Part shown: positions 7,226 through 47,691 of the stretch, piece by piece | Layout: every line of letters begins with the position of its first letter | Position numbering within the stretch: position 1 is the stretch's first letter | IMG/VR virus record: IMGVR_UViG_3300031576_001126 | Location: 62,001-126,000 of that record | Length of the DNA: 64,000 bases | Direction: 5' to 3' (one strand) | Source of the DNA: a virus | Notes under the pieces: model-generated | The model's database searches: none | What the model saw: only the letters and a program-made list of their open reading frames with translations | What the model was told of the DNA's origin: nothing | Program-made: the position numbers and the translations under genes

Positions 7226-7229
7226 ATAC

Positions 7230-27077: not shown

Positions 27078-30000
27078 ATGTCTGTAACCGTAAATAATAT
27101 CGGTTTATATTTATCTAGCAGGGTTGGCAACAGAACTGATTATAAGCTAGTTTTGTCTGTCTATGTTGCAGATCATGCCAATGGAGGTGTTCCCGATGGA
27201 AATTTGCCGCTAATTACTATCGAAAGAACTGTTGACGATATAGATTACTCAGGGTGGTTTGTTTTCAATTTTCCATATCCTGTTGTTTTAATTCCAGACT
27301 ATTATTGTATAACGCTTTATCAAAAACCCGACAATGTTGATTTCCCTGTGGACTTTAGCGTAAATTTCGTTCAGTGGTTTTATACTTCTTGTGAAGATCA
27401 CTCTAACAAGGGCGTGAGTTCTTTCTCTTCTGATCTTCAATTCACTTCGGATGTCTATGGATATGGATACGGGGGAGGCGGCTATGGGAGCACGTATGCC
27501 ACTTCGCCAATTTATGGATATGGATATGGATATGGCGATCCGGCGGATGCTTTAGATTTTTTTAATATATTTGAAGCTGGCGAAAATGATTATGGTTATG
27601 CGATAGGTCAACCGTCTTTTTTTTATAGTTATGGTTATGGTTTTGAATATGTCGATTTTGTTACAGATGATGTTATACAGAGAAATTTTAAAGTTTATGA
27701 AGATTTCAATCATATCGAATTTGAAGGTGAAAATAATGCCTGCATAAACATACCTGCGGCAGAAGAAATAACGCTAATCTTAAATAATAGACAAGAATTT
27801 TTAATGGCAGAACAAGATGGAACGGCCATTGTTAATGATTTTATAACTCTCGATGGCTTTGGAGAAAGATTAATTTCAACAAATGTTTCTCCGTTAACAT
27901 CGGATTGCATTTCCAACAAAAATGTGGATTGGTTTCCGGCAAATTTCGCTTTATCAAGCAATGATTTGAATTATGTAGATACAGTGAATTCGCTGGGAAA
28001 TACAAATCCATTTAATGTTAATATGGCATCTTCGCCATATTATGGTGGGATATATATAAGTGTTGATGGAGGCTCTTCATGGGATGCTAAAAATGATGGA
28101 CTAACACTAGTCGACAATAGCATTAGAAATATAAGTTGTGTAAAGTTTGGACCAGATGGATCTTTTATTTTAGCTTTTGATAATACAAGTTTATCAGAAA
28201 GAGGAAAGGTTTTTAAAAGCATTAATCTCGGAGAATCTTGGACGGAATTAATTTTGGCAAGTGCGACATTATCTGGAATAATTGTTAATGATGGATTTGT
28301 AATTAGTTCTTCTGAGATATGGATAGGAACCGACAATGGGGTTTACAGATCTCTTGATGCAGGAACCACATGGTTCCCTGAAAACAATGGTTTACCATCA
28401 TTAACTAATGTTAATCAAATTCTTGTAGATTTAGATATTCTCGGAAACTATGGATATGGTTATGGTGGAGGAGAAGGAATAAGTTATTTTGATGTTTTTG
28501 GATCAGATGGTTCTTTATTCGGTTACGGATTCGGATCTTTTGAAATGAGTTTTTCAGAGAATTTTGGTTATGAATATGGATATGAGTATGGTTTTTCCGG
28601 AGGATCTTCGAGGATAGTTGCCATAGCTACGGAATTCGGAGCTTATTGGCTTGTTAACGGTGTTTGGGAAAGAATATATCCAGATATTGGCCAACCAGAA
28701 GAAAATACTAATACAATTCTATTTAGTAACAATAATATATTTATAGGCAAAGACGATGGATTAATAAGATCAGAAATAGTTGGACCTGACGAAGAATTCG
28801 ACAGAATTCGCTTCAGAGGGCATAAAACTTCAGAAGCGATAAATGGAGATTTTTATGTAATCGGTTTGTCTAGAAGAAAAACAACAAAAGTTAGATTGAA
28901 TAGAAATAAAGAATCTGAAATTTTTGTGGCACAACACGGAGGAGTGTTCTTTTCTGAAAATGATGGTGGAAACTTTGTAAATCTAACAAAAAGTATATCG
29001 GAAAGATCATTAAAAATAAAAGATATAATAACCAATCCAATAGATAGCGAAATTATATATGCATCCGTAGAAACCACAAAATTTGCAAATGCTGGGGTTA
29101 CAATCTTGGTGGATTGCTCTGGAAGCATGGTAGCAAACGATCCTGAAGAAAAGCGCATAGATATGGCCCTAAACATTGTTGATAACATTGTTTCTGTGGC
29201 GGTCAATACTCCATATTTCCAAATAATAAGATTCGGAGTTTCAGAAAATATTTTATTAAGAAATCAATCAATTTACAATTCATTAAGGACTCAAGGTGAA
29301 GATTTCGATATAATTGGAGCCTTTAATTTAACAAAAAATATAAAAGGAAGAATAGTTGATGCTGGATATTCAAGCAATGTGACTTTAGTAAGAAAGGCAC
29401 TAGATGTTTCTTGTCGAGAGCCTTCTAGTGCAAGAGAACATGCGAGAACGTTGTTCTTTGATGCCCTAACGGCAACATCTACTGGTTTGGCTAATTTTGG
29501 ATCAAGATGGGAATACAAAGAGAATGTATCTAAGTATATTTTCGATGATATTTCTTCTAATTTTTATAACAACTTAGATAAATCTTTGATAATAATAACT
29601 GATGGAAACGATACTGTTGACGGGAAAACTCTACAACAATTAATAGATAGCTCATCAAATTATAACAATATTCCGTCAAAGACATACATCGTTGGGGTTG
29701 GGCATAATATAAACTTTGAAAATTTAAAAGCGCTTAGAGAGAGCAATAAAAATTCAAAACTTTATCTGGCTCCATTCGATGAAAACATATATTCAACATT
29801 ATCAGATGATGTTTCTGATGTAATTCTTGATCGTGAAAAATTCAGGAACAGATCTGGAATTTGGAGAAAATTAATAGATCTCGAAGAACCAAAAATAACA
29901 AAAAATGTAATTTTAAAGGCCAATGTTCCGTCTTCAACAACACTAACCTATAGACTAAGAACTACAAACAATAAAAAAGACTTCACGGATTTCACTGTAG

Positions 30001-33000
30001 ATTTTCTTCCAAATACTATAAACACTGTGAATTTATCTGGAAGATATATTTCTATTGCTATCAATTTTGAAAGCGAATCAACTTCTTTTGCGCCGGAAGT
30101 TTCTGAAATAAGATTTACGATTTTAGAGCCAAGTAGAAGCTATGTCAATTTTCCGATAAAAAACACAAGCAATTCCGACAGAATATCCGAAATAGAACTT
30201 TCTTCATTAGATGATTTATCTTTGGGAAATGTTTCGTCCGATGTTGTTAAAATGAATTTCGGTTTAATTCAGTCGGAAAGCACAAACTTTAAATTTTCAA
30301 ACAAAGTTCACAGAGATTTAAGATCCGTCATGCTTAAAAGGGATTTTGAAGATTTAACCAGCGAAGATGGGTTCTTTTTTAAAGCAAAAAATGGCCCTTG
30401 GCCTGGAGATACTGTTGTTAGGGTTGTTGATTTTTTAGAATTTAACGCAAATCCAAACGAAGGCGTTATAGACGGAAGCCTTTATTTTGCCATACCAAGC
30501 GAGGGGCTTATTATATTTTTTGACAAAGTAAACTCCGATAAAAAAATAAAACTCGATCTTGATTTTATATCTCAGTACAGAATTGGAACAGAAATTATAA
30601 ATCTTAGCGATGCTATCGATTGTTTTAATCTTCATGATATTGCTTGGGTTTACTATACCGATTCTAATAGTGTTTTACCAAGATCAGCTTTGCCAAAAGT
30701 CCCATCTCAATTAGCTGGATTGGAAACATTTGGGATTCTTTCCGATGGAAATCATGAGACGGGCTTTGGGTTAGCAACGACATATCTTGTGCAGTATATA
30801 TTAAATGATGTTTTCAACAATGGCATAATATCTATAACAAATGGACAAAGAATAAATTTAAAAACAACTGGAAATTCAGATATACTTAGATTCTATAATC
30901 AGAATGCGTTTTTGCCTCCAACTCAAATAGAAAATGCCCTGGACGATGGATTTCTGAGAGTTTTAAACACTCAAGGAATTGATTTTGGAATAGTAACAAT
31001 TCAACAAACTACGACTTCTCCATTGCACTATCAAATCAACGTTAAAACAAGTAGTCAAATAACTGTTGGAGAATCTGTTGTGTTTTCGATTGGAGATAGA
31101 AGCCAAGGCAGCAGGGGAATTTCCACAGAAACATTTCAAGAGAATCTATTATTTAAAAGTAACGAAGAAACAGTTTGCGAGTTTCAAACTAATTTTTATA
31201 TTGGCCAGAAATCTGGAACTCAAACTCCAAGTGTTCAAAACGGAGACTTTGATAAAATAATAACTCCAAACTTGAACCTCATAGGTCAAAATGCAACTTC
31301 TATAATTGTTTTGTGTCCAACTACCGTTTCTCCGGGATCTTTCTTCAATGTAAAATTCATAGCCGTTGATGATTTAGGAATCGTAGACAAAGAATTTACT
31401 GGAACAATACAATTTGATATAGAAAACCCAACCATGGGGACTTTTGTTGATGGGTTTTCAAAACAATTTTCCCTATCCAATTCCGGTGTTTTGGATATGG
31501 CAGTTTTGGCATCATCATCCTTATCTGGATCAACAAGAATAAGATGTGGAATAATTGTAAATCAAGAACAATCTTCATCAACTTCTTTTGATCCAACTTT
31601 ATTTGATAATATTTTCTTTAGCAATACATTTCTGATAGATTCTTCGTTCTCTGTAAAATGGGGGGATCTAAATATATCCACTATATTTGGTGACGGAAGA
31701 CAAGATATAGATTTTGTAGCGAATTATGCTGAAAAAACTTCCGCATTGAATTTTATTGGAATAACAGATGATATCGATATTCTTGACGATCAAGAATGGG
31801 CATATACTTTATTCAGAACGGATGCTCTGACTAACAACAACTTGGTCATATACCCCGGATTTAGACATAGAGCAAGCGATTTTTATGGAGAAAGAATGGT
31901 TGTTTTTGGCGGAACAGATGCCACGACAACACCACAAACACTTGCGTCTTCTTTGAAACCAATAAATTTTTCAAATCCTCAAGAGCAACTTACAAATCTT
32001 GTTAATGGATTGACAAATAAAGACTATATAACAATACCAATTCACACTCCATATCAGACAGATCAAACGGATTTCTTCTTTAGAGGAAGGGGATTCCTTT
32101 TGGATAGATATAGAAATATTGTTGACATATCTGCTTCGATGGAATCTTTTATCACAAACATAGAGTCTTCTTTCGAAATATATTCCGAACATGGTAATGC
32201 CGAAACTCCAGATTTTTATCAAAGCGAAAATTTCATAGGGAGTGAAAGCAATCTATTTGAAACTACGGCTTATGTTCAAAGAGCACTGTTTATCGGGAAA
32301 AGATTAGGATTTGTTGCTGGATCCGGTGGTTATCATAGCCGTTCTGGTTATTATAAAGGAGATAGTTCTCCAAGAACTCAATTAATAGTGGGTTCCGTTG
32401 CCTCAAACAGGGGATTGACTGCCGTCTTAACTGAAAATGTAGATAGAACTGAAATATTCAACAAAATTAAACAAAGAAAAACATATGCGACAACAGGAGC
32501 AAGGATGTTTTTGCATTTTGAAGCAACAACCCAAAGTCAAACTAAAGGAATGGGAGAGGTTTTCTCGAATTTAGATTTTGACACTTTTGGAGATCCAATC
32601 GACACAATAACATTTAAAATTAGAGCTACTTCTGATAATTCTACAATAACAAGAATCCAGATAATAAAAATAAAAATTGACGAAAATATAACGACAGTTC
32701 TAGATAGCAGAATAAGTGGGGTTCCTCCGTTTAATGTTGTTGATTTTGGCAATGACACCGGGCTTCTTGCTTTTGTGGAAGATATAAGTGATAATGCTGA
32801 AAATCAAGAATATTGTTATTATGTAAGAATTTCCCAAGACGATGGACATTTTGCTTGGTCGAGTCCTATTTGGTTTAACTTTGGAAGAGAAGAAGGAATT
32901 AGAATCACAAGCGATGTCAATTTTAGAACTGTCTCTCAACCAAGTTTGAGTTCTGATCAAGGCGATATTCCGGAAATACCATATTCTTTGTCCAAAAATC

Positions 33001-34400: not shown

Positions 34401-34447
34401 TTCCATTTCTCAATCTCGTATAATTTACAAACGGAGAGATGCTACAA
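34401..34447 (+). promoter_or_regulatory. Possible promoter -10 and Shine-Dalgarno ahead of the glycan island
   Basis: This 47-base gap separates the virion block from the sugar genes. It holds a perfect TATAAT (34419-34424) within CGTATAATTT, and GGAGAG (34433-34438) nine bases before ATG 34448. No -35 box lies at the usual 17-base spacing. The same ten bases occur at 57141-57150 before the DnaC-like gene. Evidence for a promoter is weak; the ribosome-binding site is good. Confidence 0.35.
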
Positions 34448-35692
34448 ATGGCAATCAAAGAAAAAAACATGATTATTTGGAGTTCGACATTCTGGGATGC
34501 TGGTGGTTATGCCGGGATGTCTAGAAATTATGTGAAAGGACTTTTAAACAGGGGATGGGATGTTAAAATAGAAGCAATTAATAGTCCTCATGAAATAAAT
34601 GAAGAAGAAATTGAGTTTTTTACAAAACTGGGAAGAGGACCATTTGCAAATTGGCCTCAAGTAGATCCCGTCACTTTAGAAAGAAACCCAAAAGCCAAAG
34701 TTCCCTCTCCTCCTGATGCCATTCGTGTTATGTCTCATCTTCCAATTGCCAGAGTGCCAAAACCTCTAAATGGGAAAAGAGTAATTTACAGTATGATGGA
34801 AAGTGAAAAGGTAAATAATAATTTTATACATGCAAGATGTAATCGATACTATGAAGAAATGTGGACCCCAACTTATTTTAACAAGAAAGTCTTTGAAGAA
34901 GCTGGACTTTCTATCCCTTGCAAGGTTTTGCCAATTGCCATAGATGATATTTATTCCAAAGAGAATGCTTTTCCATTAAATTTGAATTTTAAAGTTTTTG
35001 GGGATAAAGCTTCAGAACAACCTGAAGGGTTTAAATTTTTATCGGTATTTAGATGGAGTTATAGAAAAGGATTTGATGTTTTAATAAAATCATTTTTAAA
35101 AGAATTTAAAAAATCTGATAATGTTTCTTTAATAATAATTTCCAGACACGCCGGAATGCGTCACGAACCAAAATTTAGAGAAGCTGTAGAATTCGGAATA
35201 GGTTCTCTTTATAATGAATTTGCTACGGCTGATTCTCCGCCGATTTATTGGTGCGGAGATATTATCCCGGAAGAATTAATGCCAAGTATGTATTCTCTTG
35301 GAGATTGTTTTGTCTCTACATCCAGAGGGGAAGGGCTATGTATTCCCATTCTTGAAGCGAGTAAAATAGGATTGCCAACAATAGGGCCATATCACACTGG
35401 TTTTACCGATTATCTGACTGAAGAAAATTCAAATATATTTCATGTTGACGAGTGGGTTGTTTGCAATACCGTTCCAGAATGGGGGAATTGGATAACGGCA
35501 GAATTCCAAAACATGAGATTCCCTCTATTTGGAGATAAGACGATAGAAGAAGTAAGATTCTTGATGAGAAAAGTTAAAGAAAATCCAGGAATAGCCATAG
35601 GAAAAAATAAATTATTACAAAAAACAATAGAAGAAAGATATGGTTATAATAAATGTTTAGATCTTGTTGAAAAATATTTATCAAAATTATGA
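34448..35692 (+). CDS. GT4-family glycosyltransferase
   Basis: A 414-residue GT-B fold enzyme expected to transfer a sugar from a nucleotide donor to a glycan or protein acceptor in the cytoplasm. The N-terminal half has the acceptor-side loop WDAGGYAGMSRNYVKGLL. The C-terminal half shows the donor-binding pattern: FKFLSVFRWSYRKGFDVLI, then IPEELMPSMYSLGDCFVSTS, REGEGLC-like STSRGEGLCIPILEAS and GLPTIGPYHTGFTDYL. This carries the E-x7-E type donor signature of GT4. I chose ATG 34448 over an in-frame ATG at 34439 because GGAGAG abuts the latter. The stop overlaps the next start (ATGA), indicating translational coupling. Acceptor and sugar cannot be read from sequence. Confidence 0.9.
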   Translation: MAIKEKNMIIWSSTFWDAGGYAGMSRNYVKGLLNRGWDVKIEAINSPHEINEEEIEFFTKLGRGPFANWPQVDPVTLERNPKAKVPSPPDAIRVMSHLPIARVPKPLNGKRVIYSMMESEKVNNNFIHARCNRYYEEMWTPTYFNKKVFEEAGLSIPCKVLPIAIDDIYSKENAFPLNLNFKVFGDKASEQPEGFKFLSVFRWSYRKGFDVLIKSFLKEFKKSDNVSLIIISRHAGMRHEPKFREAVEFGIGSLYNEFATADSPPIYWCGDIIPEELMPSMYSLGDCFVSTSRGEGLCIPILEASKIGLPTIGPYHTGFTDYLTEENSNIFHVDEWVVCNTVPEWGNWITAEFQNMRFPLFGDKTIEEVRFLMRKVKENPGIAIGKNKLLQKTIEERYGYNKCLDLVEKYLSKL

Positions 35693-38658
35693 AAATTCAT
35701 GCTCTATATCTATATAATGGTGAAAAAGATCACATAATTAAAAGCCTCGAATACACATCTAAAATATGTGATACAATTCATATATTCGGGATAAAAAACA
35801 AAACAGAAGAACTAAATATAGAAAGTAATAATATATTTAAGCATGAAATATTTTGGGACTATGATTTTTCTAAAATAAGAAACAAAGCTATAGATATTCT
35901 TTGCTCTCAAATTTCACTTGATGATTGGATTTTGAGTTTAGATAGTGACGAATGCCTTGATCCAAAAACTTTCTGGAAAATAAATTCAATATTAGATTTA
36001 TGTTCTGGAGATTCAACTGTTTGTGGTCTTAGTTTTACCATTATAAACAATAACGACTATTGGTTATCCGAACATATTTATGATAAACCTACAAGAAATC
36101 TTAAAAAAAGAGACATAAGATTATTTAGAGCCAATCCTCTTTTAAGATACAAGGGAAGAATTGAAGAAAGTCTTGATATTAATCCATTCCTCGTCCACGA
36201 TATTGATATAAAAATTTATCATCATTCTCAAAGATATACCGATGAAGAGAATTCTTTTTTAAAAGAAAGACAAGCAATACTTGAAAAATGGAATATAACA
36301 TCGGAATCTGATAAGAAATCGTTTATGAAGGAAGAAGAAAAATTTTATTCTGTCTTTGATAAGAATTTAAAATCAATAATGTCTGAAAACAAAAAACCAA
36401 AAATAGGATTTTTTACTTTGCATTATGACCCTCCGATTGGGGGTGCGGAAAGATCAATGCATAATTATTTCTCAATTCTTTCTGATTTTTATGATATCGA
36501 AGTCTTTTGTTTCTTAAACGAAGACGGGGGTAAGTTTGATAAGGAAATAAATATATTAAGAGATAATATAAAAATAACAAAATCAAATTTGCCAATAGCT
36601 ACTTGTGTCAATAATTTTATAAGAAATGAAAATCCAAGCGCAATAATAACCCAACTATTACAATCTGAAATAATTATTGATTTAGCCCATAGGAATGGAA
36701 TTCCTTGCATATATTTTGTCCATGGTTTTTTTGAAGATATTTGTCAACATTACTTGCTTAATTCTTGTAAAGAAACAAATTTAGAAACCTGTTGTTTTGG
36801 AGCACATTGTCCCAATGCGCAGAGACAGGATATTCATTCTCAAAAATATAATAGATGCAAATCCATAATATGCAATTCCCATTACACGGAGAAAATATTT
36901 AGCAGATTTTTTCCAACAGCATCAGAAAAAGTTGTTGTAGTTCCTCCAAATTTTAATTATGAGTCATTTAATTTTTTAGAAAAAACAAATTTTAACACAG
37001 TTTTGGCCATAAACACGTCTCAATCAAAGGGAAGAAATGTTGTAATAAATCTTGCTTTCATGAATCCTGATTTAAAGTTTATATATGTTGATAGCAAAAA
37101 AAAAGACTTGCAAAATATTCCTATTCCTCCAAATATGGAGTTCAAACCAAGATTATCGAGAGAAGAAATGGTAAAATTATATAACGAAGTCTCGGTTGTT
37201 GTATATCCCACCCTTATGGATGAAACTTTTGGAGGAGTCCCTTGTGAAGCCGTTCTTTCTGGAACACCAATTGTTTGCCCAAATAAAGGGAATTTATCAA
37301 ATATAGTTATGGATGGTAAAAATGGAAAAATTGTAAACAACAGTTATAAAAAAGAAGACTGGAACAAGGCTCTTCATGAAGCTATAAAAATATGTCCACC
37401 AAGAGATTTGGCAAGAAAACTTCTTTCCAGTTTAAACACAAAAGTCAACTCAGAAAAAATAAAAAAAGAAATAGAAAAATGTATATCTTTGGTTAATAAA
37501 AATATAGTATGCAAAGTAGAAGACTATTCTAAAGATAAAATTGTTGTGAAAAACTCAAATAAAAAAAAGATATTGTTTCTAGCCAGGTTCCTACTGCCTC
37601 CACTAGGAGGAGGAGAATGGTTCCATTTTACAGTTTTAAAACATCTTCAGAAAATAGGATATGATTGCAAAGGAGCTTGTTATTTTGATGGGAAAAGCAA
37701 TATTCCGTTTTCTGAAGAAAGAGAAACAAATTGGGGGCCAATTCCTGTCCGACAAGCTGTTGTTAGAAGTTTTCATGATTTGGATGCGATTGTGGAGAAA
37801 GAAAAACCAGATTTAGTTTTAACCATGTCTTATGATGCTTTATCGATAATTAAGGCTGCCCATAAAAATAAAGCCAAGGCTATATTTGGAACTCATTTTT
37901 GGAGAAATATTTGTGAGGTTCCAGAAGTTTTTGAAAATATGTTAAAAAGACCATTAAGCAGTGTTAAGCTTTTAACCCAATTCCATCCAGCTTTTCATTT
38001 GGCTGATGAATATTATGTAAATTCTAAATTTATGCAATTGGGTGTTGAAAAATATGTAGGGAAAAAAATAGAAAGAATAATTCATCCTATGGCCGATTTG
38101 GATAGAATAGTTGCGGATAAAATTGATAAAAAATATATAACATTTGTTAATCCAGAATATTATAAAGGTGGAGAAAACTTTATAAATATAGCAAAAAAAC
38201 TTTCGAGATATAATTTCTTATGTATTGGACAAGCTCCTTTCCCAGATAAAATAGAAAGCAGCAAAAGAATAAACACAAACTTGGCCAACATGCACAATAT
38301 AAAAGTGATTGAAAGCTGTGAAAATATGTCTGAAATTTACAAACAAACAGCTATTTTGCTTGTTCCCGCTATTGTGGATGAAACATTTTCCATGGTGACT
38401 TTGGAAGCAATGTGGAATGGAATTCCTGTAATTGTTTCTCCAAATGGGAATTTGCCATTTTTAGTTGGTGATTCTAGTATAATTCTAGAATTGTCGGATT
38501 TGACTACCTGGACAAACATCATAGAGCAAATAATGGGTGATGAAGATTATTACAACATATTATCGGAATCTTGTAAAAAAAGATCCAGAGAGTTTTCTCC
38601 AGACAAAGAACTTGAAAAGTTTGAAAAAATGGTGAAGCTGACGATTGGAGATCCCTGA
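35689..38658 (+). CDS. Three-domain glycosyltransferase (GT2-GT4-GT4 fusion)
   Basis: 989 residues containing three catalytic units. Residues 1 to about 215 are a GT2-like GT-A domain related to SPBc2/LPS core-type enzymes, with WILSLDSDECLD as its DxD metal site. A GT4 domain starts near 237 (KIGFFTLHYDPPIGGAERS) and has VVVYPTLMDETFGGVPCEAV near 505. A second GT4 domain starts near 626 (KKILFLARFLLPPLGGGEW) and has ILLVPAIVDETFSMVTLEAM near 905. The ATG overlaps the preceding stop (ATGA). The fused domains would add consecutive sugars to one growing chain, so the enzyme could assemble a defined oligosaccharide. There is no membrane segment. Domain calls are firm; donors and linkages are unknown. 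Confidence 0.88.
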   Translation: MKIHALYLYNGEKDHIIKSLEYTSKICDTIHIFGIKNKTEELNIESNNIFKHEIFWDYDFSKIRNKAIDILCSQISLDDWILSLDSDECLDPKTFWKINSILDLCSGDSTVCGLSFTIINNNDYWLSEHIYDKPTRNLKKRDIRLFRANPLLRYKGRIEESLDINPFLVHDIDIKIYHHSQRYTDEENSFLKERQAILEKWNITSESDKKSFMKEEEKFYSVFDKNLKSIMSENKKPKIGFFTLHYDPPIGGAERSMHNYFSILSDFYDIEVFCFLNEDGGKFDKEINILRDNIKITKSNLPIATCVNNFIRNENPSAIITQLLQSEIIIDLAHRNGIPCIYFVHGFFEDICQHYLLNSCKETNLETCCFGAHCPNAQRQDIHSQKYNRCKSIICNSHYTEKIFSRFFPTASEKVVVVPPNFNYESFNFLEKTNFNTVLAINTSQSKGRNVVINLAFMNPDLKFIYVDSKKKDLQNIPIPPNMEFKPRLSREEMVKLYNEVSVVVYPTLMDETFGGVPCEAVLSGTPIVCPNKGNLSNIVMDGKNGKIVNNSYKKEDWNKALHEAIKICPPRDLARKLLSSLNTKVNSEKIKKEIEKCISLVNKNIVCKVEDYSKDKIVVKNSNKKKILFLARFLLPPLGGGEWFHFTVLKHLQKIGYDCKGACYFDGKSNIPFSEERETNWGPIPVRQAVVRSFHDLDAIVEKEKPDLVLTMSYDALSIIKAAHKNKAKAIFGTHFWRNICEVPEVFENMLKRPLSSVKLLTQFHPAFHLADEYYVNSKFMQLGVEKYVGKKIERIIHPMADLDRIVADKIDKKYITFVNPEYYKGGENFINIAKKLSRYNFLCIGQAPFPDKIESSKRINTNLANMHNIKVIESCENMSEIYKQTAILLVPAIVDETFSMVTLEAMWNGIPVIVSPNGNLPFLVGDSSIILELSDLTTWTNIIEQIMGDEDYYNILSESCKKRSREFSPDKELEKFEKMVKLTIGDP

Positions 38659-38660
38659 AA

Positions 38661-39668
38661 ATGAGTAAAAAATTTCTATTGATAACACGGGACTATTGGC
38701 CGGGTGTTGTTAATTGTTTAAAAAACATAGAGTTTGCAATTCGTGATATTGATCCATTGTTTAATGTTGAAAGCATATTAATAGGCAAAGGTGGAGTCGG
38801 CATTGATATAATGAAGAAAATAAAGCAGAATCCACCTGATTTTATAATTTTTGGTGGATGGGATAATGCCATTAAAATGCTGGTGCATAACACGCCTAAA
38901 GAATCCAAAGTAATGGTAAAATGGTGTTCTCCAATAACTCAAATTGAATTGGGTGGAGAAATGGCTCAGTTTATTGATGTTTTGCATTTAAGCCAAACCG
39001 ACAAAATACATTATATTGGAATGGGTTTAGAAAGTGACGTAAATTGTTTAAATAAAATCAACAAAAAAGTTATATTGATGCCTGTTTTTTTAGACACAAA
39101 AGAGCTTGATAGAATAGAATCGAAAACAGACATAAAAAGAGATGGCATAAATTGTGATCTTTTTTGTGCCGCCAACCCAAGAAAGAATATATTAGCTCAG
39201 TTATTCGCTTTGTCTAGGTTTGACGAACAGATTGCCGTTCATGTGAATTATGGGAACAATGCTAATCAAATGTATCCCGTTGTGGCGAGTTTTACAATAA
39301 AAAACTTGATAAACCACGGATGGATTGGAGATAGAAAACAATATTTATCGATTATAAAAGCTATGGATTTTGCAATGGCAGTGACTCTTTCAGAAAGCTT
39401 CAATTATACGGCTGCTGAACATATGGCTTTCGGAATTCCAATTATTTGTTCTGAAGTCGCACCATTTGTTCAGGGAGTTAAAAACATAGAAAAGATTGTT
39501 ATTCAAAGACCTGAGGATTTAAGAGAAATAGAGAAAGCGATTAAGCTTTTGGTCTCTGATGCCTCGTTTAGGAGAGACATGGGGCATGCTTGCAAGGAAG
39601 CGTTTGAGCTCTACAATAATGCCGCAAAAGACATTTTAAAGGGGAATCTCACGGAGATTGCTTTATGA
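38661..39668 (+). CDS. GT4-like glycosyltransferase
   Basis: 335 residues. The N-terminus (KKFLLITRDYWPGVVNCLKN) is a GT-B Rossmann start. The C-terminal half carries FCAANPRKNILAQLFALS, WIGDRKQYLSIIKAMDFAM, then SESFNYTAAEHMAFGIPIIC, which fits the donor-binding E-x7-E region of GT4/GT1 enzymes. GGAG about ten bases upstream supports the ATG at 38661, two bases after the preceding stop. The N-terminal domain is shorter than usual, so acceptor recognition may be unusual. It is part of the coupled glycan operon. Confidence 0.8.
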   Translation: MSKKFLLITRDYWPGVVNCLKNIEFAIRDIDPLFNVESILIGKGGVGIDIMKKIKQNPPDFIIFGGWDNAIKMLVHNTPKESKVMVKWCSPITQIELGGEMAQFIDVLHLSQTDKIHYIGMGLESDVNCLNKINKKVILMPVFLDTKELDRIESKTDIKRDGINCDLFCAANPRKNILAQLFALSRFDEQIAVHVNYGNNANQMYPVVASFTIKNLINHGWIGDRKQYLSIIKAMDFAMAVTLSESFNYTAAEHMAFGIPIICSEVAPFVQGVKNIEKIVIQRPEDLREIEKAIKLLVSDASFRRDMGHACKEAFELYNNAAKDILKGNLTEIAL

Positions 39669-40666
39669 AGATAGCATTAATAGGAGCTTTCAATTTGGCT
39701 GATGGTTATCTTGGAGCAGCAAAAGCTCTCCAAAGATTAGGACATGAAGTTGTTTTTGTCCCGGCTTATTTATATAATAATGAACATGGATTATCAAAAC
39801 ATCATTTAGTTATAGTTGATCATTTATTGAAAGAAAAACCAGATGTTTGTTTATGGTGGAGAGCAGAAACTCTTAATTCCATTCAATTTGGCAAAATAAG
39901 AAAAACAGTTCCCGGAAAATTCATCATGTATTCTTGGGATGATCCTTTGCAATGGGAAAAACATCCAGAAATGCCATTAAAATGTAAATGTCTGGATGCT
40001 GCTTTTTCTTGTTGTATGGATTCGGTTAAAATGTATAAAGCACATGGATGTCCAGAAGCATATTGGTGTCCACCGGGTTTTGATCCAGAGGTGCATTATC
40101 CCGAAGAAGACGAGGCTTATAAATGTGATATTAGTATAGTTTGCACAAATCTTTATAATGAAAAATCCGTAACACAATATCCCCATATATCTAGAAAATA
40201 CTTGCTTGATAAAATAATAGAAGAATATCCAAATGTTGATTTGAGAATATATGGATCAGAGGCATTTAAAGATATTTATCCGAACCATTACAAGGGTTGG
40301 ATTCCATTTAATGAGTCAAGAAAAGTTTTTCATAACAGTAAAATAAATTTAGATACGCATATTCGTCCTGATGGGAACATGTATATAAATGAAAGAGTTT
40401 GTCAAATTTTAGGCTCCGGTGGGCTTCTCATGGTTGATGCCGTGAAAGGATTGGAAAAGGTTTTAACAGATGTAACATATCTGTCTATTGACTCATCAAA
40501 AGATATTTCTTCGCAAAATCTTATGCTTGAGGCTACTCTAAATGAGATAAGTAATGATACTGACGGTAAATATAAAAATTTCATTGAAAAAACACGAGAA
40601 TTTGCTATGAAAAATCTAACATGGGATTGTTGGGCCAAAATAATAAATGAAAAAATGAAGATATAA
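39665..40666 (+). CDS. CgeB/YkvP-like glycosyltransferase
   Basis: 333 residues. The layout matches the CgeB family (GT-B fold, often encoded by phages): MKIALIGAFNLADGYLGAAK at the start, KPDVCLWWRAETLN, and FIMYSWDDP, an acidic DDP motif typical of the family. It continues with YWCPPGFDPEVHYP, then the C-terminal block YINERVCQILGSGGLLMVDA that binds the donor. The start overlaps the preceding stop by four bases (ATGA), with GGAG upstream. The likely role is transfer of a sugar in the same glycan pathway; the substrate is unknown. Confidence 0.85.
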   Translation: MKIALIGAFNLADGYLGAAKALQRLGHEVVFVPAYLYNNEHGLSKHHLVIVDHLLKEKPDVCLWWRAETLNSIQFGKIRKTVPGKFIMYSWDDPLQWEKHPEMPLKCKCLDAAFSCCMDSVKMYKAHGCPEAYWCPPGFDPEVHYPEEDEAYKCDISIVCTNLYNEKSVTQYPHISRKYLLDKIIEEYPNVDLRIYGSEAFKDIYPNHYKGWIPFNESRKVFHNSKINLDTHIRPDGNMYINERVCQILGSGGLLMVDAVKGLEKVLTDVTYLSIDSSKDISSQNLMLEATLNEISNDTDGKYKNFIEKTREFAMKNLTWDCWAKIINEKMKI

Positions 40667-40667
40667 A

Positions 40668-41288
40668 ATGAATGAATTTATAATGCGTGAATTTTCAAAT
40701 AAGTGTAAGGAGTTAATAAATTCAGAAAACGTATCGATACTTCTTAGTGACTCTGAGGTTGATTTTTTGGCCAACGATCTTGTCTCTGTCGAGAAAAAGA
40801 AATATTTAGAGATAGGAAGTTACGAGGGTGGATCGGCATTTATTGTTGGCCTTAGTATGAAAAAATTGGGCAAAGAAACAAATATGGAAGAAAGCGAATT
40901 TGAAATAATGTGTATAGACACATTCAAGTCGTCAAGTGAAGAATTTTCCGATAGGGGTAAAAGCACTTTTGAAAAATTTCAAAATGGAATATCAAAATTA
41001 AATCTTGGAGATATAATAAGATATAGGGTTGGAAGAAGCGAAGATATATGTAATGAAATACAAGATGGTTATTATGACATAATTTTTATAGATGGCGATC
41101 ACACCTATGAGGGCGTTAAGCAAGATTACGAAAATTACGTCAAGAAACTTAAGCCCGGAGGCCAATTAATGTTTCATGATTATAAGATGGCTCCCGGCGT
41201 TAGTGATTTTTGCAATGAAATGAATTCAAGTGTGGGCGGCGATAAGCTTGTCGATTTCAAACATACAATTTTTGGTTTTATATTATAA
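40668..41288 (+). CDS. Class I SAM-dependent methyltransferase (Methyltransf_24 type)
   Basis: 206 residues. Motif I is YLEIGSYEGGSAF, the acidic motif II is IMCIDTFKSS, and IIFIDGDHTYEGVKQDYENY is the hallmark IDGxHxYexvxxD segment of the Methyltransf_24/cephalosporin-hydroxylase-like group. It ends with LKPGGQLMFHDY. Family members often O-methylate sugars. Its place among glycosyltransferases suggests glycan methylation, possibly capping. The ATG at 40668 is one base after the previous stop; a second in-frame ATG (40683) is possible. Confidence 0.87.
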   Translation: MNEFIMREFSNKCKELINSENVSILLSDSEVDFLANDLVSVEKKKYLEIGSYEGGSAFIVGLSMKKLGKETNMEESEFEIMCIDTFKSSSEEFSDRGKSTFEKFQNGISKLNLGDIIRYRVGRSEDICNEIQDGYYDIIFIDGDHTYEGVKQDYENYVKKLKPGGQLMFHDYKMAPGVSDFCNEMNSSVGGDKLVDFKHTIFGFIL

Positions 41289-41300
41289 TTGGAGAATTAA

Positions 41301-41951
41301 ATGATACAAGAAATTGGATATAATTTTACACCCGAATGGGAAAAGAAATGGAAAGATTTGGAAGACCATATAATATATGAGATTCCAAATCTTGAAAAAT
41401 ATGGTTGGGTTGGTTCAAATTCCAATGTTGTTGAAATTGGAAGTGGATCGAACCCAAATCCAAGATCGAATGTTTTGGTTGAGCTTGAAGATGATGGATA
41501 TCACAGAGATTTCGAGAAGCTAAAAATAATGTCACACCAAAGAATAGTTTGGGGAGATATTTGTAAAGGCATTCCGGAGTTTATTGACAAACAATTTGAT
41601 TTTTCATATTGTGTCCATGTCCTCGAACATGTCCAATATCCAGAAGCGGCTTGCAAGGAACTTATGAGAATAAGCAAGAGCGGATATCTTGAAACTCCCG
41701 GACCATTTCTTGAAAAAGTTTGGAACTTCAAATTTCACAAATGGTATGTTGATGTTATCGATGGGGTTTTAACTTTTACTGATAAAAGTTTAATTCACAA
41801 GCCAATAAATATAGAGTTGAATCAATATGAGGATTTTATTTGTGGGCCTCCCAATATGAAGAACGGAACATTTGCTCATTTGAGTAGATTTCATAAATGT
41901 TTTACAAGAGTCAGATGGGTTGATAGTTTTGAGGTTAAGATTATAAGGTAA
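41301..41951 (+). CDS. Class I SAM-dependent methyltransferase (type 11-like)
   Basis: 216 residues. The SAM-binding loop is VVEIGSGSNPNPRSNVLVE, followed by WGDICKGIPEF and DFSYCVHVLEHVQYPEAAC (the HVLEH motif of type 11 enzymes), then CKELMRISKSGYLETPGP. GGAG lies six bases before ATG 41301. The C-terminal third is specific and probably binds the acceptor. It likely methylates a sugar or peptide within the same glycan pathway; the acceptor is unknown. Confidence 0.85.
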   Translation: MIQEIGYNFTPEWEKKWKDLEDHIIYEIPNLEKYGWVGSNSNVVEIGSGSNPNPRSNVLVELEDDGYHRDFEKLKIMSHQRIVWGDICKGIPEFIDKQFDFSYCVHVLEHVQYPEAACKELMRISKSGYLETPGPFLEKVWNFKFHKWYVDVIDGVLTFTDKSLIHKPINIELNQYEDFICGPPNMKNGTFAHLSRFHKCFTRVRWVDSFEVKIIR

Positions 41952-41957
41952 TTCATA

Positions 41958-43757
41958 ATGAAATTATTATTCTCAATGCCACATATAAGATGTAATGATA
42001 AGTTCGAAAGATGTCTTAGATCATTAAAAGAAAGAACTGCAAATCATGATATATTTCTATACATATGTAACTCTTTTGGCAATGATAGAACTAAAAGCGA
42101 AATAGAAAACATATTATCAACAATTGGATTCAATAATTATAAAATAGACGTAAGTAAAAATAATTTTGGATGTTCTGTGGCATGGAATGTTGGTATAAAA
42201 TATGGAATTGATAATAATTTTGATTATATAATTATTGCAAATGATGATATGTTATATTCAAAAGATTGGTTTGAAAATTGCTTAAAGTGGTTTGAAAAAT
42301 ATCCGAAATTGGATTGTGTTCATCCAATGATAGTCGGCGACATAGAGCTTGATGAGATTGGTTTTGACAATCTTTGTGAAAATACATTGCTTCCCAAACA
42401 TGAAGATAACTTTAATACCGGAATTGCATTCGGAGCTATGGTTTGTAAAAAATCTCTATTTGAAAAGATAGGTTTGCTTGACGAAAATTATTATCCGGCA
42501 TTTTATGAAGATATTGATTATGCCTTCAGAATGTTCTTGAATGACGATTGTTATTTTATAACTTGTGGAGATTCTTTTATATATCATTTTAAACATAGCA
42601 CAACTGGAAAAATATATATTAATTCTGAAAATTGCAAGAAATACTATTACAAGAAGTGGGAGGGTAAAAGCGGAGAGGATGCGAGCAGCAATGCAACATT
42701 AAGAGTTGTCTCATATATTAATGATGTGAAATCATATGAATCAAATAAAAGAGTTGATAAAAATTTCAAATGTGCAGATTCATCAATAATAGAAAGCCCA
42801 ATAATTATTGAAGAAATAAATTCTAAGAAAAAGCTTGTTTATATCTCTTATCTTAGGAGTGACTTTCTTGACGATGTTGTTTTTAGTGGATTGCGATATT
42901 TCTCTGACAAATACGATCTTTACTACATCATACCAGACGGAGCCGACTACATAACAAGAAAGAATAGATGCCATTTCAAGACAAGAACGGATTGGGCGAG
43001 AACAGCTTCGGTTATGAAGCCATTTGATTACAATACTGATTATGACATATGCATTGTGGGCCAACTTTGGCAAGAAAGTCAAGCCTGTTACAATTCATTC
43101 AAGGGAAAAGTAAAGTTTACATGCTGCATAGACGGAATGGACAATCCAACGACGCCACAGGTTGATCACGATCTTTTAATTAGGAGAGAGACCGCAGATA
43201 CAAAAATATTTGTGCCGTTTGCGTGTCCGTACGATATAGTCTATAAAGAAAATACAAAAATACCAAAATATTTTGTAAATTTCCAAATGAGCGATACTTA
43301 TAAGACTAGACGTGATTTTTTCAATAAAATTGTTCAAATAAATCCTGAAAATTCAATCATAACCTTCCAACCTTGGGGAAAAGAAATTCTCGGAAATGCT
43401 CCATTTACACCACAAGAAGATTGGTGGAACGTTTTGGAGGAAAGCAAAGCAATAATGAATGATCGAGGGGCCGGAGGGGATGCTTTTAGATTTTGGGAGG
43501 GAATGGCAACCGGAAATTTTGTTGTTTCCTCAAGAAGGCAAATATTTAACGATCTGCCATCTCCGCCAAATGTTATTTGGTTTGATGATTTGAACGAATT
43601 GGATTCAATAATTTGTGATTTGAGAAAAGTCAGTGATGACGAACTTATGGTCGTGAGAAAAAAGTCGAAAGAGTTCGTGAAACAACATCACATGCCAAGA
43701 AACAGAACCGAAAAAGTATTGTTGAGGATAGAGGAAAAAATAAATGAAAGACATTAA
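41958..43757 (+). CDS. Bifunctional glycosyltransferase: GT2 plus C-terminal GT-B/CgeB-like domain
   Basis: 599 residues. Residues of about 1-230 form a GT2 domain: NFGCSVAWNVGIKYGID, YIIIANDDMLYSKDWF with its NDD metal site, and GLLDENYYPAFYEDIDYAFR, the ExxDxxxR acceptor-side motif of rhamnosyl-type GT2 enzymes. Residues of about 275-599 look like a GT-B or CgeB-type domain (KLVYISYLRSDFLDDVVFSG, then AIMNDRGAGGDAFRFWEGMA and GNFVVSSRRQIFNDLPSPPN). It is the second GT fusion in the island. The C-terminal 14 bases overlap the next gene, implying coupling. Confidence 0.83.
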   Translation: MKLLFSMPHIRCNDKFERCLRSLKERTANHDIFLYICNSFGNDRTKSEIENILSTIGFNNYKIDVSKNNFGCSVAWNVGIKYGIDNNFDYIIIANDDMLYSKDWFENCLKWFEKYPKLDCVHPMIVGDIELDEIGFDNLCENTLLPKHEDNFNTGIAFGAMVCKKSLFEKIGLLDENYYPAFYEDIDYAFRMFLNDDCYFITCGDSFIYHFKHSTTGKIYINSENCKKYYYKKWEGKSGEDASSNATLRVVSYINDVKSYESNKRVDKNFKCADSSIIESPIIIEEINSKKKLVYISYLRSDFLDDVVFSGLRYFSDKYDLYYIIPDGADYITRKNRCHFKTRTDWARTASVMKPFDYNTDYDICIVGQLWQESQACYNSFKGKVKFTCCIDGMDNPTTPQVDHDLLIRRETADTKIFVPFACPYDIVYKENTKIPKYFVNFQMSDTYKTRRDFFNKIVQINPENSIITFQPWGKEILGNAPFTPQEDWWNVLEESKAIMNDRGAGGDAFRFWEGMATGNFVVSSRRQIFNDLPSPPNVIWFDDLNELDSIICDLRKVSDDELMVVRKKSKEFVKQHHMPRNRTEKVLLRIEEKINERH

Positions 43758-44505
43758 AGATAGAATAAAAGTTGGCATAGTATCCATGTGCAATCATGGT
43801 CTTACCGACAAATGCATTAAAAGCTGTATAAAGAGTGGAATAAATGATGTTTATGTTTTTTGCAATTCATCAACAATAAATTTCGATAATTCCGTAAGAC
43901 ACGATATAGCTGGAAGAAATATCGGGGTGTCATATGGCTGGAATATGCTGGTCAAAGATTTTTTGAAAAGTGACAAAGATTATCTTTTTATATGCAATGA
44001 TGATATAATATTTATGAATAATTGGCATATTTGTGCCAAACATTTGGATGATGAGAGAATTGGTATTGTTAGCCCATTGCTTTTAGAGAGGAAGTTTTAT
44101 GACGATATTTCTGGAAGTTCCAATATATTCCTGAATGACTGGCAAAATGTATGTTTGTTTGGATGTTTTGGGATTAACAGAAAGACTATAGAGAAAATTG
44201 GCATGTTCGATGAAGAGTTTGAATGTTGTGGCGAAGATAGCGATTATAAGGCCAGAATCTTCAAATATGCCCTATCCTCGGAAAATCCAATTTTGATGAT
44301 GACTGACAATAGCTGTTATGTTTTTCATTATGGTGGTCAATCTCTAAAATCTTCATTTAACGAAACCAGAGAAAAATCAAAGATGGCCAATATACTTTTT
44401 GATAGAAAACACCCGGAATGGCCGACATTGACAAGGGCCAATTATGACAGGGTTTCCATAGAATATGGCAAGAAATTGGAATGCGTTAAAAATGGAATCG
44501 AATAA
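43744..44505 (+). CDS. GT2-family glycosyltransferase
   Basis: 253 residues, a single GT-A domain. AGRNIGVSYGWNMLVKDFL, then YLFICNDDIIFMNNWH with an NDD metal-binding motif, and IGMFDEEFECCGEDSDYKAR with the ED-x-D-Y acceptor motif. These match the N-terminal domain of the preceding gene, so the two may be paralogues. The start lies inside the end of the preceding gene. It likely acts in the same glycan assembly pathway. Confidence 0.85.
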   Translation: MKDIKDRIKVGIVSMCNHGLTDKCIKSCIKSGINDVYVFCNSSTINFDNSVRHDIAGRNIGVSYGWNMLVKDFLKSDKDYLFICNDDIIFMNNWHICAKHLDDERIGIVSPLLLERKFYDDISGSSNIFLNDWQNVCLFGCFGINRKTIEKIGMFDEEFECCGEDSDYKARIFKYALSSENPILMMTDNSCYVFHYGGQSLKSSFNETREKSKMANILFDRKHPEWPTLTRANYDRVSIEYGKKLECVKNGIE

Positions 44506-45253
44506 TAAAGTTTCAATATGCATAAGTCATTTTAATAGACCGCTCGCACTTAAGCAGGCAATTTTGGGAATAAACAAGTTTATAAGACCAAACTATTGCA
44601 ATATTGAAGTTCTAGTTTCTGACGATGGGTCGAGCAAGGAGAATGTTGATGATATTTCAAAAATAGATGGTATAGATAAACTTCTATTTAATGAACATAT
44701 TGGCGGAGGTTCAAACAACAATAAACTTATATGTAATTGTTCTGGAGATTATATTATATGGCATCAAGACGATTTTGAGTGCCTTGGATATGACAATTTC
44801 ATAGAAGATTGTATAATTCTATCGGAGGTTGAGAATTGTGGAATAATAAGACTTTCGGGATTCAATGGAAAATTCGAAAAAACACCATTCAGAATAGATA
44901 GAATGCCAGAAGACACAAAGCCGGGTTTTAGATATGAATTAAAGGAACATGTGGGAATTCCTTATGCTGAGGCGATACGAGAAAGTGATGAATTAGTTAA
45001 GGTTCGGGGAGATCTTAGATGTCTTTATAGCGATCATCCACATTTCAAAACAAGGAAATTCATCGAAAAAATAGGTTTGTACAAAGAAGGTGCGAGCATC
45101 TGGAGATCGGAAGGGGATTTTGTCGAAAGATATTGGAATGATGGATTTAAGACTATTTTTTGGGGAAATTTGATAGTAAGTAGCAATTTTAAGACAACCA
45201 AAACTATTTTGAGTGATAAAGAACAGGAATTGATAAATAGAAATATTCTATAG
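44492..45253 (+). CDS. GT2-family glycosyltransferase
   Basis: 253 residues from ATG 44492; an in-frame ATG at 44465 would add nine residues. I prefer 44492 because the GT-A strand KVSICISHFNRPLALKQ follows at once. EVLVSDDGSSKENVD is the nucleotide-binding DDGS motif, and GDYIIWHQDDFECLG holds the DD-containing metal site. The start overlaps the previous gene by 14 bases. It is less similar to the previous gene than that one is to its upstream neighbour. Confidence 0.83.
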   Translation: MESNNKVSICISHFNRPLALKQAILGINKFIRPNYCNIEVLVSDDGSSKENVDDISKIDGIDKLLFNEHIGGGSNNNKLICNCSGDYIIWHQDDFECLGYDNFIEDCIILSEVENCGIIRLSGFNGKFEKTPFRIDRMPEDTKPGFRYELKEHVGIPYAEAIRESDELVKVRGDLRCLYSDHPHFKTRKFIEKIGLYKEGASIWRSEGDFVERYWNDGFKTIFWGNLIVSSNFKTTKTILSDKEQELINRNIL

Positions 45254-45263
45254 GAGAATAAAA

Positions 45264-45827
45264 ATGAAAGCCAAAGGGAATGTTGTTGATGATTATAACG
45301 GTATAATTTGTTCTGTTATAAATGCATGTGAGTTTAAGAACTATCTTGAATTGGGATTGGCAGGCGGACATCAGTTTGATAAAGTCTCCAAAAATTGTCC
45401 AAACCTAGAAACTATGGTTGCGGTTGATATTAGAACTTCCGATTGGACTATATTTAATCCACTACCAACAAACCCAAGAATGAAAATATATAATGGTACG
45501 AAAACTGATGATTTCTTTGCAAATAACGTGAAGGATCATAAATTTGATGTTGCTTTTATAGACGCCTGTCACAACTATGATCAAGTTATGAGAGATTTTA
45601 ACAATGTCTTGAATGTAATTGAAGAAGATGGAATAATTTTCATGCACGATACCTATCCTCCCAATCAATCTCATACCACAGAAGGAGCATGTTCCGACGC
45701 ATATAAAGCGTATATGGATATATGCGATAATTATCGCAAAGTTTGTGAATGTGTCAATGTTCCAATATTTTGTGGTCTAAATATTGTGAGGAAGATAAAT
45801 AGAAGTAGGAGAATATTAACGATATGA
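45264..45827 (+). CDS. Class I SAM-dependent methyltransferase (Methyltransf_24 type)
   Basis: 187 residues. YLELGLAGGHQFDKV is motif I, MVAVDIRTSDW motif II, and FDVAFIDACHNYDQVMRDFN is the IDxxHxYxxVxxD signature, with GIIFMHDTYPP after it. AGGAG stands about six bases before ATG 45264, one of the better ribosome-binding sites in the island. It is a shorter relative of the enzyme at 40668. A sugar O-methyltransferase role is inferred from its neighbours only. Confidence 0.83.
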   Translation: MKAKGNVVDDYNGIICSVINACEFKNYLELGLAGGHQFDKVSKNCPNLETMVAVDIRTSDWTIFNPLPTNPRMKIYNGTKTDDFFANNVKDHKFDVAFIDACHNYDQVMRDFNNVLNVIEEDGIIFMHDTYPPNQSHTTEGACSDAYKAYMDICDNYRKVCECVNVPIFCGLNIVRKINRSRRILTI

Positions 45828-46801
45828 TAGCCAACTCAAATATATTGATAACCGGAGGCACTGGCAGTTTTGGAAACAGAGTTGCCCAAAAAATAATTGC
45901 CATGAATCCAAAGTCGGTTTCAATATTGTCGAGAGACGAGAAAAAGCAATATGAGATGAAAAAGCTTTTCCCTGATTTCAGATATCTTATAGGCGATGTT
46001 AGGGATGCAAACAGGGTGGATTTTTGTTGCAAAAATATGGATTATATCTTCCATGCGGCTGCCTTAAAACAAGTTCCAAATTGCGAAGATTTCCCGCACG
46101 AGGCACTTCAAACCAACTCAATCGGATCATTCAATGTATGCAATTCTGCCATAAGAAACAGCGTAAAAAAGGTCGTATTTTTATCAACCGATAAAGCCGT
46201 AAAGCCAATAAACGCTATGGGTATCTCCAAAGCGATGATGGAAAAGATTGTTGTCTCCCAAAATAACAAAAACATAAACGACTGTGCCACAATATTCTGC
46301 TGCGTTAGATACGGAAACGTTATGGCGAGCAGGGGAAGTGTAATTCCATTTTTTAGGAAGTGTATAGAAAATGGATCTGATATACCAATAACTGTTCCAG
46401 AAATGACACGTTTTATGTTGACATTGGACGATGCCTGCGAGCTTATTTTCTATGCTTTTGAAAATTCGAAAGGCGGGGAAATCTTTGTCAAAAAATCTCC
46501 AGCCTGCACTGTTGATTTTCTTGTAGATTTCATGTTAAAATACCACGGTGGGTCTAGCCAAAAGAAAATAATAGGCCCAAGACCGGGAGAAAAATATCAC
46601 GAGACCCTGATAAGTGAGTATGAATCCCTAAGAGCAAGCGACATGGGAAATTTCTTTGTTGTCCATTCGGAATATTCAAGTTATTTTAACAGTCATGTGG
46701 AATTTGGAATAGAATACACTTCTGAAAATACAAATAGAATAACAAACTATGATGATTTTTTAGATCTATACGAAAGGGCTAACTTTTTTGATTTGGAGTA
46801 G
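45824..46801 (+). CDS. UDP-GlcNAc 4,6-dehydratase-like enzyme (CapE/FnlA/PseB group)
   Basis: 325 residues, an extended short-chain dehydrogenase. ILITGGTGSFGNRVAQKII is the NAD(P)-binding loop; AALKQVPNCED, VVFLSTDKAVKPINAMGISK and PRPGEKYHETLIS are diagnostic of nucleotide-sugar 4,6-dehydratases acting on UDP-GlcNAc. The usual catalytic Tyr of YxxxK is Met here (MGISK); I recall Met-containing relatives in the CapE/WbjB branch, so this need not mean inactivity. It would make a 4-keto-6-deoxy sugar for the downstream reductase. The start overlaps the previous stop (ATGA). Confidence 0.88.
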   Translation: MIANSNILITGGTGSFGNRVAQKIIAMNPKSVSILSRDEKKQYEMKKLFPDFRYLIGDVRDANRVDFCCKNMDYIFHAAALKQVPNCEDFPHEALQTNSIGSFNVCNSAIRNSVKKVVFLSTDKAVKPINAMGISKAMMEKIVVSQNNKNINDCATIFCCVRYGNVMASRGSVIPFFRKCIENGSDIPITVPEMTRFMLTLDDACELIFYAFENSKGGEIFVKKSPACTVDFLVDFMLKYHGGSSQKKIIGPRPGEKYHETLISEYESLRASDMGNFFVVHSEYSSYFNSHVEFGIEYTSENTNRITNYDDFLDLYERANFFDLE

Positions 46802-46806
46802 TTTGA

Positions 46807-47691
46807 ATGATACTGGTTGCAGGAGGTTCTGGTGGTCTTGGTCGCACATTTGTTGATCGAGACCATCTTGGAACCCACTTCTCTAAGAAATATAAAAACA
46901 CTGAATTCGCCGATTTTTCAAAATCAGAAAATGAAACTTGGAAGAAGCTTGACGAACTTTGTCGTGGCAAAGATATTGATTGTGTTGTTTCGACCATTTC
47001 TTATACCGATGTTGATGGTTCTGAAAGAGATTTCGAAAAAAGCAAAAAAATAACAAGAGACTCAAATATACAAATATGTGATTGGTGTAATAAAAACAAA
47101 TTACCATTTATATTTATATCGTCCAATGATATTTTTGATGGAGAAAGGGGACTGTATCTCGAAAATGATAAACCCCTTCCAGTGAACAATTACTGCCTTC
47201 ATAAAATTGAGGCAGAAGAGCATATATTAAAATGCGAGGGAGACAATCTTATTATTAGATGCAGTCTTCTTGAAGATTATAGCTCATTCAAAAAAATACC
47301 ACTTATAGTAAAGATTTATAATTCAATTATAGAAAAAATCGACGTAAGTTTATTTCGTGATTCATATAATAGTCCCGTAAGTATCGAGTTTGTTTGCGAT
47401 TTTATTGAAAGTTTTTTGAAATCGAATTTCAAAAAATGGAACGGGATAAGACATCTGCACAGCGAAAGGGTTTCAAAATATGAAATCGGGGAGATAATGT
47501 GCGATATTCTTGGATACAACTATAATAATATAAAAGAGTCATCAATATCCGATTGCAATTTCTTGGCAAAGAGGCCAAAAGACGTTTCTTTGCTTTCGCT
47601 TTATGATAATTGTAATCTTGGAAGTATTCATAAAAACATATCCAATATAATTTACAGCATAGGACAAAAGGACAAGACACTCAATGGATAG
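46807..47691 (+). CDS. RmlD-like nucleotide-sugar 4-ketoreductase
   Basis: 294 residues. ILVAGGSGGLGRTFVDRD is the Rossmann loop. DCVVSTISYTDVDGSERDF matches the RmlD segment where dTDP-4-dehydrorhamnose reductases read AA/YTxVDxAE. FIFISSNDIFDGERG is the STDYVFDG-like motif, and NNYCLHKIEAEEHIL contains the catalytic YxxxK. It lies five bases after the dehydratase, so it probably reduces that enzyme's 4-keto product. It lacks the C-terminal cupin domain of CapF. The sugar made (for example a 6-deoxy-HexNAc) is inference. Confidence 0.82.
   Translation: MILVAGGSGGLGRTFVDRDHLGTHFSKKYKNTEFADFSKSENETWKKLDELCRGKDIDCVVSTISYTDVDGSERDFEKSKKITRDSNIQICDWCNKNKLPFIFISSNDIFDGERGLYLENDKPLPVNNYCLHKIEAEEHILKCEGDNLIIRCSLLEDYSSFKKIPLIVKIYNSIIEKIDVSLFRDSYNSPVSIEFVCDFIESFLKSNFKKWNGIRHLHSERVSKYEIGEIMCDILGYNYNNIKESSISDCNFLAKRPKDVSLLSLYDNCNLGSIHKNISNIIYSIGQKDKTLNG

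Follow-up and report, generated by a model that had tools for sequence, protein, structure and literature searches.

A 2440-aa open reading frame (P0001, 27078-34400, plus strand) carries a stretch that reads like a DUF3604/PHP metallo-hydrolase with altered metal-binding motifs. It lies in the window, by which we mean the whole 64,000-base stretch of DNA analysed here (bases 62001-126000 of a virus record 140,188 bases long). This locus raises the question of whether a phage has taken a hydrolase fold into a long protein without its catalytic site, and what such a domain may do there.

Family membership and extent of the domain

The curated profile PF12228 (DUF3604) matched P0001 by hmmscan at 25.2 bits with the whole protein, at 28.7 bits with the excised region and at 28.2 bits in a further run, and a PF12228 search of the genome gave P0001 at 29.4 bits, all above the gathering cut-off of 20.4 bits. 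The aligned span covered aa 1772-1869, corresponding only to profile positions 372-480 of 591, but a profile of the relatives and the alignments extended the homology across the sandwich and the two halves of the barrel as far as the C-terminal end. A profile built from 28 relatives, all from outside the phage and without the phage row, detected P0001 alone, at 59.5 bits, when run on the record's 257 stop-to-stop frames, with the runner-up at 1.5, and scored the region at 65.0 bits where none of 200 shuffles exceeded 3.6, although these two tests are partly circular because the 80 source loci had been picked for likeness to the phage row. The PF12228 match is independent of that circularity. 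The assignment to DUF3604 made in the earlier note is therefore supported by both profiles.

The motifs W1528-GDLNIST (31659), ITDD (31761) and TYATTGAR (32481) were found where that note had placed them. Its span of 31656-32530 contained the DUF3604 match but was too short at both ends, since the homology runs from about aa 1339 to 1932 (31092-32873). What had been taken for a domain piece of 290 residues is instead a whole embedded DUF3604 protein, in which the alignments distinguish an N-terminal sandwich, the PHP barrel and a C-terminal AWSSPIW end (Table 1). The N-terminal motif GDRSQGSRGISTETFQE aligns with GDRRQGGxGTRVQTFVE of the relatives, and the C-terminal stretch ends in YYVRISQDDGHFAWSSPIW, whose counterpart in the relatives is YYLRVTQENGQLAWSSPIW. 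The loop from IPIH to EIYSEHG is longer in the phage copy than in the relatives.

Table 1. Features of P0001 in window coordinates
Feature	Position	Strand	Evidence
Asp-box (BNR-like) repeats, aa 328-432	28059..28373	+	Three regex matches; NCBIfam F510_1955 24.0 bits, below cut-off
vWA-like region, DCSGS aa 679, TDG aa 841	29100..29810	+	PF13519 E 0.005, below cut-off; motifs
N-terminal module part, GDRSQG...ETFQE (aa 1339 on), with Ig/filamin-like beta-sandwich (~aa 1405-1519)	31092..31650	+	Alignment; model residues 30-144 against Ig/macroglobulin/filamin-like domains, Z ~10
PHP barrel, aa 1528 to ~1815, degenerate metal site	31659..32523	+	PF12228; 2anu_D Z 11.9, 186 residues, model residues 149-433
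N1532-I-S1534 replacing H-x-H (ligands 1, 2)	31671..31679	+	Alignments
D1539 (FGDG), ligand-like residue kept at canonical position 3	31692..31694	+	Alignment to FSDG in L121/L104; nine-residue consensus of PMC3666897
D1564-D1565 against canonical TDH (ligand 4 His to Asp); position variable in family	31767..31772	+	Alignment
R1596 replacing near-invariant Glu (PGxEW, ligand 5)	31863..31865	+	E in 133/134 relatives
E1605-R1606 replacing H of GHRNV (ligand 6, variable in family)	31890..31895	+	Alignment
I1655-H1656 at invariant IP-His (ligand 7); equivalent residue alignment-dependent	32040..32045	+	115-sequence alignment: I; 134-ORF alignment: H
EIYSEHG, non-ligand motif kept	32175..32195	+	Glu E in 134/134 relatives
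G1750, Y1752, H1753 replacing D-x-H (ligands 8, 9)	32325..32336	+	D in 133/134, H in 129/134 relatives
Exit motif RKTYATTGARM	32475..32507	+	Motif match
AWSSPIW, aa 1926-1932, C-terminal module end	32853..32873	+	Alignment, motif

Predicted fold

The model of aa 1376-1935 was of moderate quality (mean pLDDT 56, pTM 0.63), and pLDDT in the second half of the barrel was mostly below 60. Its best VIA-align match was the PHP phosphoesterase 2anu_D (Z 11.9, rmsd 3.5, 186 residues), and the other 49 rows listed, with Z of at most 10.5, were mostly complement, macroglobulin, filamin, Ig-like and GH2 chains on the N-terminal sandwich. A Foldseek search with the same model gave beta-sandwich and other non-PHP rows, with no PHP structure among the best 50. 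As a control, an Actinomycete relative (L006) was folded with 27 relatives and the phage row left out. This model (pLDDT 82.8, pTM 0.84) matched 2anu at Z 20.0, 3e38 at 19.9 and EndoQ 7k30 at 15.1, and the metal-poor Pol III alpha PHP domain 2hnh at Z 11.5, which indicates that these DUF3604 proteins have a PHP barrel with an N-terminal sandwich. The best fold matches, TM0559 (2anu) and BVU_3505 (3e38), are titled predicted metal-dependent phosphoesterases and gave no sequence match among the rows listed.

The phage domain is thus predicted to have the same PHP fold as its relatives, and the match of its own model to 2anu agreed with the metallo-hydrolase fold that had been proposed from the motifs. 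Nothing significant turned up when the PDB was searched by sequence, and one of these searches found no match up to E 10; the best rows in one search were Pol X PHP domains at E 0.2, with agreement in motif order only. When the L006 model was searched against BFVD, the recognisable PHP rows belonged to a Pol III alpha and to a PHP protein that stands alone; none came from a structural protein with a PHP barrel.

Loss of the metal site

The nine-residue metal consensus of PHP domains is H, H, D/H, H, E, H, C/H, D/N, H, according to PMC3666897. Ligand positions were assigned by motif order and the Pol III table, without a solved DUF3604 structure behind them, and the phage residues in consensus order are N1532, S1534, D1539, D1565, R1596, E1605/R1606, I1655 or H1656, G1750 and Y1752. 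P0001 keeps one or two of the nine positions of the catalytic site: D1539 and, in one of the alignments, H1656. Nor was a complete site found in a shifted place, as the barrel region contains only five His and no Cys and no more than two of the canonical positions survive.

Comparison with 115 and 134 relatives supported the ligand loss claimed in the earlier note. All 134 relatives have H at the first His, 133 have E at the Glu, 133 have D at the Asp and 129 have H at the last His, and the phage has N, R, G and Y at the same four positions. The change of DLHxHT to DLNIST, on which that note relied, includes this first His. The second ligand His is H in 106/134 relatives, and ligand positions 2, 4 and 6 are variable among them. 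The change of TDH to TDD is present as described, but it is weak evidence because this His varies across the DUF3604 family, with TAND, TPH and TDQ in relatives. The real losses are those at the DLHxH His, PGxE and SDxH.

In the 115-sequence alignment, the relatives keep five to seven of eight tested positions with a one-residue tolerance, except L131, which keeps two of eight; the columns of ligands 4 and 6 are off by one residue in some rows, so counts are quoted for the other positions only. We then compared columns conserved at 85% or more, with L131 left out. With 24 sequences below 60% identity, 26 of 31 non-ligand columns but none of the 5 ligand columns are retained in the phage (p=6.7e-4, one-sided Fisher test). 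The values were 39/65 against 0/7 for 65 sequences below 90% identity (p=0.003) and 19/25 against 0/5 for 13 sequences below 45% (p=0.003). Repeating the comparison on the 134-ORF alignment, where the IP-His falls on H1656 and is scored as kept, gave 12/14 against 0/4 (38 sequences, p=0.005) and 11/14 against 0/4 (24 sequences, p=0.011). All these p-values are indicative, because alignment columns are not independent. The phage side of the comparison is a single sequence. The plain reading of these data is that the metal site was lost, not shifted, while the fold was kept.

The phage is not alone in having lost ligands: among the Latescibacteria phylum sequences, one DUF3604-like ORF (L131 3-983), which was kept in the 115- and 134-sequence comparisons, is itself degenerate at most PHP ligand positions. 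This ORF sits at a contig start, and it may represent metal loss in cells too, or a remnant.

Cellular relatives

Patterns and tblastn searches, the latter with the phage row as first query, served to select the 80 loci from bacterial genomes, and one of the patterns allowed E or R at ligand 5; for these reasons the sample is not random. The counts called cellular include one IMG/VR sequence (L005) in the 115-, 24/65/13- and 134-sequence sets and MT835824 (L132) in the 134 set, and alignment A2 was made without L026, L029 and L015, which were judged from low identity to be the wrong ORF. PF12228 matched in 50 of 64 genomes of the phylum of a Latescibacteria MAG, and plasmids of Rhizobium and Azospirillum gave 22 weak matches. 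The best single relatives by phmmer were L117, L111, L110 and L096, all from the Latescibacteria phylum search; the ranking says little on origin because the sampling is uneven.

These four and the Azospirillum/Rhizobium plasmid proteins P0002 and P0003 share the domain order of the phage module, with the sandwich in the longer forms, and the layout of WGDLH/WGELH, IPHH, EI(F/Y)SEHG, a YATTG-type exit and the AWSSPIW end. Identity between the phage row and the four other rows of alignment A4 is 25-30%. Unlike the phage copy, the cellular proteins keep the first His, Glu, IP-His and DxH ligands and occupy shorter frames. Among the matches listed (27/299, 20/198 and 40/198 genomes; Latescibacteria-phylum matches not included), DUF3604 frames measure 55-1501 aa and none is longer than 1501 aa, so the embedding in a 2440-aa chain appears unusual among these matches.

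P0002 also gave a weak match to the CehA/McbA family metallohydrolase model NF038032 (29.6 bits against a cut-off of 80), which had no match in P0001 in the NCBIfam search up to E 1. A DUF3604-type gene of Rhizobium etli (L004 1489-6093) adjoins ABC transporter genes and an SfnB family sulfur acquisition oxidoreductase. These neighbours give a hint that some DUF3604 members may act on sulfur compounds or sulfate esters.

Search for phage relatives

The earlier note had suggested looking for active versions in related phages, and the scans made found no other phage with the domain. No match was obtained by tblastn of the domain and of whole P0001 against 50,697 phage records. Two cellular relatives searched against the same records hit one, MT835824.1, a 17-kb sequence in which the translations show LacI-type regulators, transporters, sulfatase-like and nagA-like genes; it was rejected as a phage carrier and treated as a bacterial fragment because it has no recognisable phage gene. 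In this record, deposited as 'Bacteriophage sp.', the DUF3604 gene stands between TctA-like transporter and sulfatase-like genes.

Scans of viral contigs for the domain returned only L005, a 10.9-kb contig with a stand-alone DUF3604 gene. The exit-motif pattern hit five stretches in viral contigs, all in unrelated proteins. A distant replication relative (L143, DnaB 35% identity) is a 70.5-kb fragment with neither a DUF3604 nor a P0001 match. The viral scans are insensitive, and absence of the domain from phages is therefore weak evidence.

Genomic setting

P0001 is the last gene of a run of giant same-strand ORFs, which covers 638-34400 of the window, extends upstream on the record from about base 19196 and takes up about 75 kb of 140 kb. 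Further upstream, the record encodes a minor tail protein (phrog_290, E 1.3e-9), and a 1230-aa ORF there weakly matches a tape-measure family (phrog_934, E 4.8e-4). They are followed by ORFs of 1749, 1079, 1373, 1899, 4146, 2251, 443, 2195 and 6287 aa and then by P0001, the lengths 1230, 1899 and 2251 aa being arithmetic across piece ends. Most of the giant ORFs scanned had no Pfam or PHROG match; the 6287-aa neighbour matched Sortilin-Vps10 and Reg_prop propeller models. In P0001 itself, the Pfam matches to vWA, mCpol and BNR are all below their own cut-offs. From gene order and synteny, which are what place P0001 in the virion, we infer that it is a tail-side host-contact protein.

Two homing endonuclease genes (window 7164-7973 and L087:11621-12187; PHROGs homing/HNH/GIY-YIG) lie amid the giant ORFs. 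Immediately downstream of the giant ORFs comes a gene cluster (window 34439-47691) for glycosyltransferases, methyltransferases and sugar-nucleotide enzymes, possibly serving to decorate virion or host polymers.

Discussion

Our results suggest, with a probability of about 0.6, that a whole cellular DUF3604 protein was captured by the phage and is now a pseudoenzyme, a module that probably serves a long tail protein for recognition or as a spacer, without hydrolysis. The phage ORF would have taken in the complete cellular protein, with its beta-sandwich, PHP barrel and C-terminal strand region, as an internal module. The catalytic-metal residues would then have been replaced while the barrel and the conserved non-ligand residues were kept. 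In this way the module may have come to stand beside propeller-like Asp-box and vWA-like regions in one host-contacting tail chain. Loss of activity is suggested by the loss of the ligands, and a recognition role by the retained EIYSEHG motif together with the neighbouring domains. Because the metal-binding residues are almost all gone, the domain probably binds or supports rather than cuts, and two- or three-metal hydrolysis is very unlikely since at most two canonical ligands remain. We therefore favour a non-hydrolysing module that would act in surface-ligand recognition or as a rigid spacer, two roles between which the data discriminate poorly. D1539 and H1656, and also D1564/D1565, could still bind a single metal.

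A rival reading is a purely structural spacer, in which the barrel is kept for the stability of a long protein, as in E. coli Pol III alpha, and has no ligand of its own. For Pol III, PMC3666897 describes a degenerate PHP domain that supports overall protein stability, and the L006 control model resembles 2hnh. A spacer would, however, need no EIYSEHG, a motif outside the nine ligands whose Glu is invariant in the relatives, even if this motif may be structural itself; we regard the purely structural role as unlikely, though worth keeping in view. Equally tentative is a lectin-like receptor-binding module, in which the substrate pocket was kept and the metals dropped, so that the particle would hold the ester-decorated surface polymer that the ancestor would cut.

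It is very improbable that the domain is still catalytic, whether through a reduced or remodelled site (for example one metal via D1539, D1564/D1565, H1656 and H1753) or by a metal-free mechanism. The retention of D1539, the positions of H1656 and H1753 within one residue of canonical ones and the tolerance of the DUF3604 family for variation at ligands 2, 4 and 6 would fit such a site, but the phage has substitutions at the four positions where at least 129 of 134 relatives carry H, E, D and H, and the barrel is poor in His and lacks Cys. P0001 could also be a secreted or cell-surface protein made in the infected host and absent from the virion, or the record might not be a phage. PHROGs has no family for P0001 and the tape-measure match is weak, yet P0001 stands in line with tail-side genes on a 140-kb virus record that has PHROGs helicase, primase and exonuclease matches, and we consider this explanation improbable.

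A PHP domain that keeps its fold, loses metal ligands and has a non-enzymatic role is established for E. coli DNA polymerase III alpha, whose variant domain is described in PMC3666897. It differs from the phage domain in belonging to a polymerase subunit and in keeping more of the nine ligands (H12, D19, H83 and D201 in the table of that paper). The earlier note took the recruitment of such a fold to be undescribed; the loss of metal ligands is thus known, whereas its occurrence inside an adhesin-like phage protein appears to be new. In the open-access literature we found no giant phage protein described as carrying a DUF3604 or PHP module, no paper on a virion PHP domain and no described DUF3604 function; the single paper found under the name DUF3604 concerns Chlamydia mutants. 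After Pol III alpha, P0001 would be a second setting where the PHP barrel outlasts its metals. A natural variant without metals, set in a protein that probably contacts the host, opens a route to the DUF3604 ligand by binding, not by guessing the reaction.

Two further features of P0001 may be added. Several GYG-rich stretches (GYGYGYG) occur in its first 500 aa (window 27459-28523), and the vWA-like region, which precedes the metal-dead PHP domain, may be a MIDAS adhesion domain that is still intact.
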